64,000 nucleotides of DNA. It comes from Brachionus koreanus. Its lineage: Eukaryota > Rotifera > Eurotatoria > Ploima > Brachionidae. The notes beneath the pieces were generated by a model. That model was not told where the DNA came from, ran no database searches, and saw only the letters and a program-made list of their open reading frames with translations. The DNA lies in NCBI GenBank assembly GCA_016987375.1, contig PJRA01000216.1, positions 1,134,438-1,198,437 on the forward strand, in the 5' to 3' direction. Of this stretch, positions 25,000 through 63,303 are shown piece after piece; position 1 is the first letter of the stretch, and each line of letters begins with the position of its first letter. The translations under genes and the position numbers were made by a program.

Positions 25000-25372
25000 T
25001 TAAAGATAAGGTTTATCATTTGGTGATTCCGGATAAATACAAAGACATTCATTCGGAAATATTGGAAAAATGCACAACGATCTTGTTATAATGCTCATAC
25101 TTAAATATAAATTAATAAAAGAAATAGAAATTAGTTAATTTAATATAAAATTACCATTGCATTTTTCCACAGCATATGGGCCCATAAGAATTACAAATCG
25201 AAATTTGTTCTAAACATCGACCAGAATTATATGGTATCTATTCGAAACTTGATTAAAAATTTTATTAAAATGTTTAAAAAAAAATTACATTTAATGTGTT
25301 TGAAGTTTTGAAAAAAATTATTAAAAAATAAGATAAAATTAATAAATTTTCAACACTTTTAATTGTCTGCAT
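25000..25372 (-). CDS. Small secreted cysteine-rich peptide, three exons, knottin-like spacing
   Basis: Three minus-strand exons, 25289-25372, 25155-25237 and 25000-25099, are joined by GT-AG introns of 51 and 55 nt, the usual size here. Phases close (0, then 2/1) and the product has 88 residues. Exon 1 is a textbook signal peptide: a short polar head and a hydrophobic core LLILSYFLIIFF near residues 10-21. Exons 2 and 3 encode a mature part with eight cysteines at residues 36, 43, 50, 51, 56, 65, 74 and 76, spaced C-x6-C-x6-CC-x4-C-x8-C-x8-C-x-C. The first six fit the inhibitor cystine knot pattern and the C-x-C end adds a fourth pair. A TATATAAA-like element lies about 65 nt before the ATG. 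Role unknown: hormone-like, defensive or other. No function should be assumed from the fold. Confidence 0.75.
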
Positions 25373-26251
25373 TATCGAAAATCTAGAATAAGAAATAATA
25401 GTGTTTATAAAATTTGAAAATATCAGGCTATAAATTTATATATTCAGTATTGTTTTGTAATTCTATAATGTAATCAAAATAGATAAAAATCAATCGATTT
25501 ATTAAAAATAATATTTTTAAAAACATTAATCCTACCAAATTTTTTAAAAAGGATTGAATCACTTTAAAAAGTAGACATCTGTTTTTAGATTCTCTTTCAA
25601 AAATTTTGTTTTTTTTTGAATAATAAATAAAAATTAATTATTGTCAAAAATATATTTGGGTTATCATTTTTGTCAATTTATGAAAACAAACTGTTAAAAT
25701 GAATGTGTTATTTAATAGTTCTAAAATAAAAAAATTTTTTGTTTGTATTTTGAGTAAAACAAAAAAATTTAATCTTGAAAAACAAATTTTATCAAAACAG
25801 CTCAATTTTTAATACAAAAATTGATATGTTTTTTTAACGATTTTTTCAAAAATTTAAAAATTTTTAAGAAAATTACATTAAATCCTAGAAAGCTCATAAT
25901 AAAATAAATCAGTTTATAAGATTCATCTAATAATTTTTTAGAACAAATCATCGATATTAAAAAATATTTTTTTTCTACATTTTTTTTAATATGTTTTGAT
26001 TAAAAAGCCTCTTCGCGAAACTAAGACTAAAATTAATCATCTAATAATAATTGAGAGTTATTTAACCTTTTAAGAAAAATGATTCCCAACACAAAGATAT
26101 AATTATAAGGTAATAATTTGATTGCTAAATATAAAAGCTCTTATTCTCTTAATTTAATCTAAATTTTATTTAGAAACCAAAAAATATTTATAATACAACA
26201 AAAACATTTTTATTTTATTTTCAGTATTTTTCATAAAAATTTGAAATATTT

Positions 26252-46158: not shown

Positions 46159-46303
46159 GTAGCCCGTGTAGCCGAGTGGTTTGTGTGTTAGTCATGCAAG
46201 CAGAGGGTGGAGGGTTCAAAACCCACTGAGGGTGGAAAAATCTTCAAAATGTCTCTGCATTACGGGGCGCATGTTTAAACCCCTTTCATCAGAAAAAATG
46301 GGG
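46159..46303 (+). mobile_element. tRNA-derived SINE head, truncated by an assembly gap
   Basis: An internal RNA polymerase III promoter is visible: A box GTAGCCGAGTGG near 46168 and B box GGGTTCAAAACCC near 46215, at tRNA spacing. The acceptor and anticodon stems pair poorly, so it is not a functional tRNA. It is followed by a tRNA-unrelated region and then the gap, as expected for a SINE copy at which assembly collapsed. Confidence 0.65.
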
Positions 46304-47027
46304 NNNNNNNNNNNNNNNNNNNNNNNNNNNNNNNNNNNNNNNNNNNNNNNNNNNNNNNNNNNNNNNNNNNNNNNNNNNNNNNNNNNNNNNNNNNNNNNNN
46401 NNNNNNNNNNNNNNNNNNNNNNNNNNNNNNNNNNNNNNNNNNNNNNNNNNNNNNNNNNNNNNNNNNNNNNNNNNNNNNNNNNNNNNNNNNNNNNNNNNNN
46501 NNNNNNNNNNNNNNNNNNNNNNNNNNNNNNNNNNNNNNNNNNNNNNNNNNNNNNNNNNNNNNNNNNNNNNNNNNNNNNNNNNNNNNNNNNNNNNNNNNNN
46601 NNNNNNNNNNNNNNNNNNNNNNNNNNNNNNNNNNNNNNNNNNNNNNNNNNNNNNNNNNNNNNNNNNNNNNNNNNNNNNNNNNNNNNNNNNNNNNNNNNNN
46701 NNNNNNNNNNNNNNNNNNNNNNNNNNNNNNNNNNNNNNNNNNNNNNNNNNNNNNNNNNNNNNNNNNNNNNNNNNNNNNNNNNNNNNNNNNNNNNNNNNNN
46801 NNNNNNNNNNNNNNNNNNNNNNNNNNNNNNNNNNNNNNNNNNNNNNNNNNNNNNNNNNNNNNNNNNNNNNNNNNNNNNNNNNNNNNNNNNNNNNNNNNNN
46901 NNNNNNNNNNNNNNNNNNNNNNNNNNNNNNNNNNNNNNNNNNNNNNNNNNNNNNNNNNNNNNNNNNNNNNNNNNNNNNNNNNNNNNNNNNNNNNNNNNNN
47001 NNNNNNNNNNNNNNNNNNNNNNNNNNN
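46304..47027. other. Assembly gap (724 N)
   Basis: A run of undetermined bases beginning inside or beside the SINE-like repeat. Any reading frame spanning it is meaningless. Confidence 0.99.
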
Positions 47028-47520
47028 TAAAAAATTTGTCCCTAACGAAATTTCTTTTTTTTTATTTGAAAATATTCAAATTCATATTTAGAATTTTTTT
47101 TTTACTTCAAGCAAGATAAATTTTCTAATTAAATGTAAAAAAATTTTTGCTGATACAGCCTTGGAAAGTTTACTTTTGTACAAAAATAATTAGAAAAACG
47201 AGTACATCAATCAAAAATTTACTTGTCAAATAAATAAAATTAAATGCCTCATAATATGAATTTTAATCTCATGTGTTAATTTTCTACTTCTGCTTGCTTT
47301 CTTAATAGAAACGAAAAGAGAAAAACAAAAAAGAGCAACACTTTTTTTAAATCAAAGAAAAATGCTCAAAAATGGTTGTCATAAGAACGATATTTTAGCT
47401 TTTGTGGTAAATTAAATTTTAGTTAGGAAATTTCTTCTGAACAAGGTATTAAATGTTTAATTTAAAATACATTATATTGTTTAATGATCTTTTAGAATAC
47501 AAATTAATTTTAGATTTAAA

Positions 47521-59898: not shown

Positions 59899-62800
59899 CT
59901 ATAGACTAAAATATAATATAATTATTGAAAATATCAAAAAAGTTACTGTAAAAATTAAAATGCTAAAAAAATCACTAGGCGTTTTGTGATGCAGATTGGA
60001 TTTAGAGTAAATTATCGAATTCTTTTTAGTATTTTTTTTTATTTTTTTAATATTATTGTTAACATTGTTAGTATTCCCAATCCCATTTGCTTTTTCAAAA
60101 CTTAAGTTTTTAAAATCATTCTCAATGAGATCCAATTTTTCAAACTTGTTCTTTATTTCAATTGATCTATCGGTTTCGATATTTAATTTTGTTTCATCCG
60201 ATTTTTGCAAAAATTTTTTCTCTTCTGATTTTAGTTGTTTCGTTTTAAAATGCTTATTTGCATGGGTTGGTTTACCAGTCGAATAAAATTTTGTCTTAGT
60301 ATAAGATTGGCCTAGACTTTTCCGTTCTAATTTTTGATCTTTTTCTTTAAATGGCATCATTTCAAATGATTTTTCACATGAATTTGCCTGCTGAACGATC
60401 GAACTATACGTTTTTTTGAAAATGTGACAATCATCAAAGGTCTCATTAATTTCAACTAAACTATTTTGACTATCATCTAACTTTTCATCCTTTTTAAACC
60501 CAAATATTTGAACTTTATTCAAATTTTGAATTTTTTCATTTGAAATTTCTTCAATTTCTTGATTGGAATGTGTTGATACATATAGGCAATTATAATCTGA
60601 AATATTTCTAATTTCATCATTTGAAATCAAAATATTAGAATTGGATGTTTGATCAATTTTATATTCCTCCGATTGAATGGAGTTCTCTTTGGATAAACTT
60701 TGATCAGAAACTGGACTTGAAATTTGCTTATCATTCTGTTCAACTACCGAGGCAATTAAGTTTAAATTTTTTTCATTTTCTTTATATTCATTATTTTTTT
60801 CAAATTTATCCGAAAAATTTTTTTGATCAATTTCAAGTTCGTCAAATTCTTCTTGAGTAAAATTAGTTTCTTTAAAATTTTGTGCGTCTGTTTCTTGCTC
60901 ATTTATTTTTTCATTTTGGTCCAAGCTAGTCTGCACATTAGTGATTTCTATTAAATTTTCCGACAAAATCGGCACCGTTTGGTCTGAATTTACTAAATTT
61001 TCAGAAAAAATTTCAACATTTTTATCTTGTTCATTTTCATTTTTAACAAAATTTGAGTCATCGTTAGCTGTATATTCATAAATGACTATCTCATTATTTA
61101 CTTGTTGACTGATTCCATTTTGCTCACATGTTTGGTAAACTGCATCATCATTCTCAGAAAAATTTTCATCATCAGAATCATCCACATTATGAACAGATTG
61201 TGAATTACTTTTATCTTCATATAATGATATTCCTTCATCTATGATTAGTTCTTCATTATTTTTAATTATGTCATTATCACTGTATTTTTCATCCTGGCCA
61301 AATCCATTTATATCTTGATCGAAAATTTCTTTTGATTCAAAACATAAATTATCAGCTTCCGATTTAACTAGCTCATCTTTATTTACTTTTGAAGTAAAGA
61401 TCGAGTTTTTGTTTGTCGAATCGACATCAAAATCTGATAAGTTATTTCCATTTGTACCATCAAATAGATTTTTTTCACCATCATGATGAATAAAGGTTTT
61501 ATCTTTTATTTCCATGTTATTTTCATAATCAGACATAATTTTGTCGTCATTCTTCAATATCTCTTCATTACATTGATCAAATGTATTACTTAAGTGATCA
61601 TTTTCTAAAAAATTGTGAGATTTTTTTGCACTTATATCACTAGTTTCACATACTGACTCGGATTCTTTTTTTAATTCCGATTCAATTGACAATTTTTCAT
61701 CATTAACTTTTTCTGTTTCACTCATTTTAATACCATTGAAGAGTTTTTCATCATTTTGATTAATATTTTCTACATGATCATTATTTTCTATAACTAAATC
61801 ATCTATATCTTTACTACATTCAAACTCAAATACAGAATTTTGTTTTTTTTCTTGCTCATCAACAATTTGCTCGCATGTCTCATTAGAATTATTTTCCAAC
61901 TTTTGACCATTTGTTTTATCAGATTGATAATGGATCGATTCATTAGTTGTATTAAATTCCAAAAAAAAATCGTTTGTTATAATTTTTTCAAATTTCACCG
62001 GGTTTTGGACATTTGGCAATACTTGATCGTCATTTTGAAAACAATTCTGCATTTGCGGCACTATTTGCTCATTACTTGTTGAATTTTTTTTGCTATCTGA
62101 TTTTAAAATTTCATCTGATGAACCATTTTGATCGAGCAGAAGAGGACTTTCAGTTAGATATTTAGTCGGTTGATTAGACTCGACACTTCCTTCATGCTCG
62201 ACTATTTGAGTGTCGTCCAAGTCATTCTGATTTTCCTTTAAGGTTTCCTCGAAATTAGACAATTGAAAATTAATATAACTTTCATCTTCAAAACTATATA
62301 GTTCTTTTAGACTATTATCAGATTTATTTTTTAGCTCATTGGTATTTTTTTGAATTTTTCTCATCAAATCAATCAGTGAATCTGTTTGGCTGCTGTTTGG
62401 ATTTGATTCTAAATCGGACATACTTTTCGAGCTTAGATCACTTTTAATATTGCTTAACTTGTCACCTGACTCAAGGCTTTCGTATGAACCATTTATCATC
62501 GGATAGGAATTTAAATTTCTAGTACTCTCGACAGATTTGTTATCATCTAAATCGAAGGAGGAAACTGAGCTCTTTGATTTAGATGCAAGACTTTCTTGAT
62601 ATTTGGGCAATGAATCAACTCGTTCTAGCCTATTCATTCTTTGACCATTTTCGACAATTTTTTGAATTTCACCTCCCATTTTTATTGCTGGTTGTGGCTC
62701 TGTTTTCATCAATGATTTACATTCATTTGAAATTGAAAGAATTTTCTTACAAAATTTGTACTCATAGTCGTGTCGAATTAGAAACAAAAATCCGAGTAGA

Positions 62801-63303
62801 ATTTTCCGATTTCCTTCAACTAATTCGTTTGAAGTAATGCCAATGCATTTTACCTGGCGTATTAGTTCCATAAAATCAATGCATGATTGAAAATTTTTCA
62901 TCATATGCAAACGGGTTGTTGGATTTTCTTTGTTCAAGTGGCATTTGTATAGCACTTCAAGCAAATAAACAACTCTTAAGCCATCTGACAAATCTACAAA
63001 GAGATTTCTAATTGCGTACGAACTGGCTAAATTTTTGTTTATCCACTCAACCAAATTATCAGCTTGATGGTCGTCAAGTTTTTTCCTCAAATCTTTCCAT
63101 TTTTTGTCTTCTCTTAATGATCTGTAGTAAGGAATCAAATAAGCTAGATCAGCTGCATGCTCAATCCTCTCGGTTGCTTCCGGTTTGGTGGTTTTTTTTT
63201 CAATTTGTGCTACTAGCTTTGCATTTGCTTGTTTTCTGGCGCATCGTTGACAAAAAAATTTTCGCTTTGGTGATCTCGAGTCAACAGAATAAACTGTTGA
63301 CAT
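59899..63303 (-). CDS. Calponin-homology protein with acidic linker and C-terminal membrane anchor
   Basis: A single-exon frame of 1134 residues. Residues about 80-183 are a CH domain of the actin-binding CH1 type: DNLVEWINKNLASS, LFVDLSDGLRVVYLLEVLYK, LHMMKNFQSCIDFMELIRQV, and the EGNRKILLGFLFLIR end. No second CH domain follows. Residues 190-1080 are acidic, Asn/Asp/Glu/Ser-rich and probably disordered. The last residues, FFSILIFTVTFLIFSIIILY before FSL, form one membrane helix at the very C-terminus. The layout recalls calmin or KASH proteins: an actin or microtubule-binding head tethered to ER or nuclear membrane by a tail anchor. The end lacks the KASH PPPX motif and there are no spectrin repeats, so neither name is assigned. 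Confidence 0.8.
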   Translation of the reverse strand: MSTVYSVDSRSPKRKFFCQRCARKQANAKLVAQIEKKTTKPEATERIEHAADLAYLIPYYRSLREDKKWKDLRKKLDDHQADNLVEWINKNLASSYAIRNLFVDLSDGLRVVYLLEVLYKCHLNKENPTTRLHMMKNFQSCIDFMELIRQVKCIGITSNELVEGNRKILLGFLFLIRHDYEYKFCKKILSISNECKSLMKTEPQPAIKMGGEIQKIVENGQRMNRLERVDSLPKYQESLASKSKSSVSSFDLDDNKSVESTRNLNSYPMINGSYESLESGDKLSNIKSDLSSKSMSDLESNPNSSQTDSLIDLMRKIQKNTNELKNKSDNSLKELYSFEDESYINFQLSNFEETLKENQNDLDDTQIVEHEGSVESNQPTKYLTESPLLLDQNGSSDEILKSDSKKNSTSNEQIVPQMQNCFQNDDQVLPNVQNPVKFEKIITNDFFLEFNTTNESIHYQSDKTNGQKLENNSNETCEQIVDEQEKKQNSVFEFECSKDIDDLVIENNDHVENINQNDEKLFNGIKMSETEKVNDEKLSIESELKKESESVCETSDISAKKSHNFLENDHLSNTFDQCNEEILKNDDKIMSDYENNMEIKDKTFIHHDGEKNLFDGTNGNNLSDFDVDSTNKNSIFTSKVNKDELVKSEADNLCFESKEIFDQDINGFGQDEKYSDNDIIKNNEELIIDEGISLYEDKSNSQSVHNVDDSDDENFSENDDAVYQTCEQNGISQQVNNEIVIYEYTANDDSNFVKNENEQDKNVEIFSENLVNSDQTVPILSENLIEITNVQTSLDQNEKINEQETDAQNFKETNFTQEEFDELEIDQKNFSDKFEKNNEYKENEKNLNLIASVVEQNDKQISSPVSDQSLSKENSIQSEEYKIDQTSNSNILISNDEIRNISDYNCLYVSTHSNQEIEEISNEKIQNLNKVQIFGFKKDEKLDDSQNSLVEINETFDDCHIFKKTYSSIVQQANSCEKSFEMMPFKEKDQKLERKSLGQSYTKTKFYSTGKPTHANKHFKTKQLKSEEKKFLQKSDETKLNIETDRSIEIKNKFEKLDLIENDFKNLSFEKANGIGNTNNVNNNIKKIKKNTKKNSIIYSKSNLHHKTPSDFFSILIFTVTFLIFSIIILYFSL

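Follow-up and report, generated by a model that had tools for sequence, protein, structure and literature searches.

Gene model and genomic setting

The window analysed here, a stretch of 64,000 nucleotides, comes from a genome of 83 Mb in 92 contigs. A tropomyosin-like gene on the plus strand and a Y14/RBM8A gene on the minus strand flank the gap that holds the candidate gene. At window positions 25000-25372, three exons on the minus strand join into an intact spliced frame of 88 residues followed by a stop codon. Exon lengths, intron lengths and matching phases were all found as a preliminary description of this DNA had given them:

Exon 1, 25289-25372, minus strand: 84 nt; ATG and hydrophobic leader, 28 codons, ending in phase 0; GC 0.155
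Intron 1, 25238-25288, minus strand: 51 nt; GTAATT...AATAG; GC 0.137
Exon 2, 25155-25237, minus strand: 83 nt; cysteines 1-4 and two bases of the codon for cysteine 5; GC 0.337
Intron 2, 25100-25154, minus strand: 55 nt; GTAATT...TTAAG; phase 2; GC 0.091
Exon 3, 25000-25099, minus strand: 100 nt including the stop; end of cysteine 5, cysteines 6-8 and a 12-residue tail; GC 0.30

Both introns are of the GT-AG type, with phases 0 and 2, and the second interrupts the codon of the fifth cysteine. The neighbouring Y14/RBM8A gene (minus strand, 26892 down to about 26252; PDB match with E = 6.6e-50) was the only neighbour that we spliced. Its introns measure 52, 55 and 48 nt with a GC of 0.13-0.19, and one acceptor ends in AAG. 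The candidate introns resemble these and are therefore of a usual local kind.

The spliced product carries the cysteine spacing previously reported for it, C-x6-C-x6-CC-x4-C-x8-C-x8-C-x-C, with cysteines at residues 36, 43, 50, 51, 56, 65, 74 and 76; exon 2 supplies the array C-x6-C-x6-CC-x4-C and exon 3 adds x8-C-x8-C-x-C. The leader contains no cysteine and reaches a best 10-residue mean hydropathy of 2.94 (scan threshold 2.2), with a cleavage site that is weak by eye; no obvious propeptide follows it. The composition of exon 1 is intron-like, not coding-like.

Ten nucleotides upstream of the candidate ATG ends a pyrimidine-rich, acceptor-like tract on the minus strand (TTTCTTATTCTAG, 25383-25395), a possible sign of an intron within the 5' untranslated region. 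Trans-splicing at this tract was set aside because an EST study of Brachionus plicatilis gave no evidence of a spliced leader, its authors leaving room for a small subset of transcripts (PMC1925144).

Other features of the window were recorded in passing. The tropomyosin-like coiled-coil gene (plus strand, 21152 to about 23820), recognised by eye from its sequence and not by database search, has many short exons, some of them seemingly duplicated, as with alternative splicing. A single-exon frame of 1134 residues (59899-63303, minus strand) encodes one N-terminal calponin-homology domain, followed by a long stretch that looks acidic and by a hydrophobic C terminus, and by eye resembles a tail-anchored actin-binding protein. 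Within a 312-residue frame at 46181-47119, 724 bases (46304-47027) read as N in the scanned copy.

Search for relatives

The whole product was compared with about 5.8 billion proteins: two candidates shared words with it, and none matched at E of 10 or below. This search used all words of the 88-residue query and reaches only relatives that share exact 5-residue words. Rotifer sequence is present in the database, as shown by the SFPQ/NONO-like protein of the window, which is 79% identical to its Brachionus plicatilis counterpart and shares 84% identity along its full length with another entry; a short three-exon gene would be represented there only given transcripts or good gene models. These identities point to a monogonont rotifer related to, but distinct from, B. 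plicatilis as the source of the window. Against Pfam, the full product gave a single match at E of 10 or below, the irrelevant YnaM (E = 0.91), and the mature part gave no significant match in Pfam or NCBIfam. Neither the mature part nor the exon 2 part, searched as protein against the genome, recovered a paralogue; both found only the locus itself.

The first six cysteines of the product, C-x6-C-x6-CC-x4-C-x8-C, show the order by which knottins are recognised, six cysteines arranged as C-C-CC-C-C with short loops. The sole PDB match was agelenin (2e2s), a spider inhibitor-cystine-knot peptide, aligned along the cysteine framework over product residues 34-65 at a non-significant E of 1.4, and it serves as a lead only. 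Cysteines 1-6 come in the same order in both peptides and with near-identical spacing, whereas the rotifer product has two more cysteines (x8-C-x-C) and no Pfam match to Toxin_35 (PF10530) or Toxin_7 (PF05980), whether the full-length product or the mature part is used. Toxin_35 is the domain reported for agelenin-like cystine-knot proteins of nemertean mucus (PMC10674772).

Genome-wide searches with family profiles were also carried out. The Toxin_35 profile had no match in the genome and none in the control genomes either, so this result says nothing about the genome. The Toxin_7 profile weakly matched two places elsewhere in the genome (loci L024 and L025), both below the family cut-off, and also 3 of 14 control genomes, all of them prokaryotic. 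The spliced-product scan of L025 returned no chain. L024 was rejected as a relative, since this better of the two Toxin_7 places is a spliced model with CBM_1 domains. The Antifungal_pept profile found nothing in the genome and one weak match among the controls.

The L024 model is of interest in itself. Located at G000:C2:92516-95575 on the minus strand, it begins with a leader, has exons at locus coordinates 2053-2000, 1805-1746 and 1587-1483, and contains two stretches assigned to CBM_1, the 'fungal cellulose-binding' domain (Pfam E = 1.8e-15). It is possible that this gene serves the digestion of plants or algae. A CBM_1 gene is unusual in an animal, and horizontal transfer might explain it.

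Small secreted cysteine-rich peptides fill hormone, growth-factor, structural and defence roles, and the candidate could in principle belong to any of these. One alternative, which concerns the role only and overlaps with the reading we prefer, is that of a conserved hormone-like or growth-factor-like ligand, or of a structural component of lorica, egg shell or glue. That the genome searches found no second copy speaks for such a role, while a conserved hormone would be unusual in leaving no relative for the 5-residue-word search to find; we hold this alternative possible, on the doubtful side. Because no relative is detectable, a fast-evolving, outward-acting effector is favoured over a conserved hormone.

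Comparison with known knottin systems

Like the knottin-type CRP-I peptides of Mytilus, the candidate is a small and probably secreted precursor whose cysteines form a C-C-CC-C-C array (PMC10138031). The Mytilus peptides have a dibasic propeptide site and a mature part contained in one final exon (PMC10138031), whereas the candidate has no obvious propeptide, eight cysteines and an array split by an intron. The inhibitor-cystine-knot genes of funnel-web spiders likewise have three exons with the signal or leader exon first; their mature peptide is described as lying wholly in exon 3, with introns in phase 1 and 2 (PMC13172734), in contrast to the phases 0 and 2 and the split mature domain of the candidate. 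The split mature domain counts against membership of known knottin gene families, since the spider and mussel genes described in these two papers keep it whole (PMC13172734, PMC10138031). For one tabulated mussel CRP-I knottin, the mussel study lists no significant protease inhibition and a MIC above 32 uM for four bacteria, and by analogy this inactivity in those assays counts against a defence role for the candidate (PMC10138031).

Chance yield in real and randomised sequence

In DNA of this composition, a spliced cysteine-rich frame could also arise without function. GT-AG pairs are cheap in AT-rich non-coding DNA: the local null sequence holds 11.7 donor-like and 24.9 acceptor-like sites per kb, together with 0.3 open 28-codon hydrophobic starts per kb. 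The chance explanation was evaluated with a scan for cysteine-rich products of 60-115 residues that run from ATG to stop, begin with a hydrophobic leader and contain no more than two introns, each 38-90 nt long.

For real sequence, the cut-offs were at least 6 cysteines and at least 11% cysteine after the leader. From 264,000 bases scanned, of which 81,499 were masked N, the 182,501 readable bases yielded the candidate as the sole product with at least 6 cysteines, and the reversed copy of the same 264,000 bases, used as a control, yielded none. When the window was rescanned with introns of 35-150 nt allowed and at least 7 cysteines required, the candidate was again the only product.

The main null was third-order Markov sequence modelled on 1-kb blocks, 235,061,288 bases in total, with masked stretches dropped and isoforms merged, the mature part being cut at residue 25 for null loci and at residue 28 for the candidate. 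It contained 139 distinct loci with at least 8 cysteines, equivalent to 0.59 per Mb or about 0.038 per 64 kb, a rate at which tens of windows would yield one. With at least 7 cysteines there were 292 distinct loci, and only three of them, in some 235 Mb, had the six-cysteine knottin spacing, a pattern that was picked after the candidate had been seen and is therefore weighted less.

Further nulls were built from the immediate surroundings. With the 2.25-kb gap modelled and both strands scanned, third-order sequence produced 24 products with at least 8 cysteines and one with knottin spacing in 90,400 replicates; second-order sequence from the same gap produced 12 and one, respectively, in 90,200. 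Modelling on the 373-nt block alone gave 4 such products and no knottin spacing (90,400 replicates). In a first-pass null built on the window only (1,536,000 bases), one 7-cysteine product appeared and none with 8 or more. Another first-pass null of 375,672,000 bases gave 195 products with at least 8 cysteines and 7 with knottin spacing; it treated masked N as A and scored each overlapping isoform separately, and the main null is preferred.

The candidate thus exceeds the ordinary chance yield, by too little to exclude chance when many windows are examined.

Composition also argues against chance. The GC of the mature exons minus that of the introns, with cysteine codons excluded, is 0.189, a contrast matched by one of the 276 intron-bearing null loci, and none of the 292 null loci lies in DNA as AT-rich as the surroundings of the candidate (GC 0.205). 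Codon usage, by comparison, carries no coding signal. On synonymous codons the candidate scores -0.5 bits, below 87% of the 292 null loci, and its whole-codon score of -4.4 bits is equalled or exceeded by 37% of them; this comparison is skewed, as the null loci sit in richer DNA than the candidate. Weighing the missing homologue and the silent codon usage against the rarity of the knottin spacing, the low yield of the local null and the GC contrast, we consider a chance origin unlikely. The original reading as a hidden gene holds against the null models and in the GC contrast of exons 2 and 3, while gaining nothing from codon usage, relatives or paralogues.

Contribution of the individual exons

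The preliminary description counted leader, splice phases and cysteine pattern as three independent coincidences. Randomising one part of the locus with the rest held fixed showed them to be of unequal worth. When the DNA upstream was randomised and exons 2 and 3 were kept, a matching leader exon appeared in 473 of 163,950 trials (0.29%). When the downstream DNA was randomised and exons 1 and 2 were kept, at least 8 cysteines were reached in 3,394 of 163,950 (2.1%), at least 7 in 10,534 and at least 6 in 29,813. Given these conditional chances, the leader is a real coincidence, and exon 3, of moderate weight only, is the part of the model likeliest to be wrong.

A further alternative draws on this lesser weight of exon 3: a real secreted gene with another 3' structure, whose first two exons are modelled correctly but whose third is not, or whose second intron stays in the transcript. 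Retention of intron 2 would add a tryptophan and then a stop, giving a product with four cysteines; six would result if an intron of 368 nt led instead to a last exon at 24786-24747. On the other hand, GC rises from 0.09 in intron 2 to 0.30 in exon 3, and the eight-cysteine chain is the richest in cysteine among the six chains listed for the locus. We judge a different 3' end improbable. A decayed copy or a non-coding transcript is very improbable, since the model is free of stops and frame breaks, even with no relative at hand for comparison.

Proposed mechanism

Taken together, the candidate is probably a real secreted cysteine-rich gene. The best overall explanation, which we regard as somewhat more likely than not, is a real monogonont rotifer gene for a small secreted and possibly knottin-type peptide. 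A knottin fold for the product is suggested by the spacing of its cysteines and is, in our estimate, slightly favoured.

Mechanistically, the leader (approximately residues 1-27) would be cleaved off in the endoplasmic reticulum, leaving a mature part of about 60 residues with four disulfides. Cysteines 1-6 would build an inhibitor-cystine-knot-type core through the pairs 1-4 and 2-5 and either 3-6 or 3-8, and the final C-x-C would close an additional loop. The resulting protease-resistant peptide would be secreted outside the cell and would work through binding. Its target would most likely be foreign or extracellular, as for a defence or secretion effector, rather than one of conserved-hormone action. 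We offer a defence-type effector role as a tentative proposal. More speculatively, a rotifer-specific family of secreted eight-cysteine knottin-like peptides, with the knot split by an intron within the fifth cysteine codon, might exist and represent a layer of very short genes that annotation of AT-rich rotifer genomes has overlooked; we consider this rather unlikely.

Significance

Taken alone, the locus would add one further small cysteine-rich secreted peptide to a kind already known. If expressed, it would provide a concrete case of a short, intron-broken gene for a secreted peptide, easily missed by lists of open reading frames and by standard gene prediction. The open-licence literature that we searched on Brachionus and Rotifera contained no report of an inhibitor cystine knot, and none of a knottin for Brachionus; an expressed product would then possibly be a knottin in a phylum with no reported examples in that literature. 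Rotifers can be cultured and are in use for ecotoxicology and aquaculture (PMC1925144), so that a role of the peptide in defence, feeding or signalling would be testable in the animal itself.
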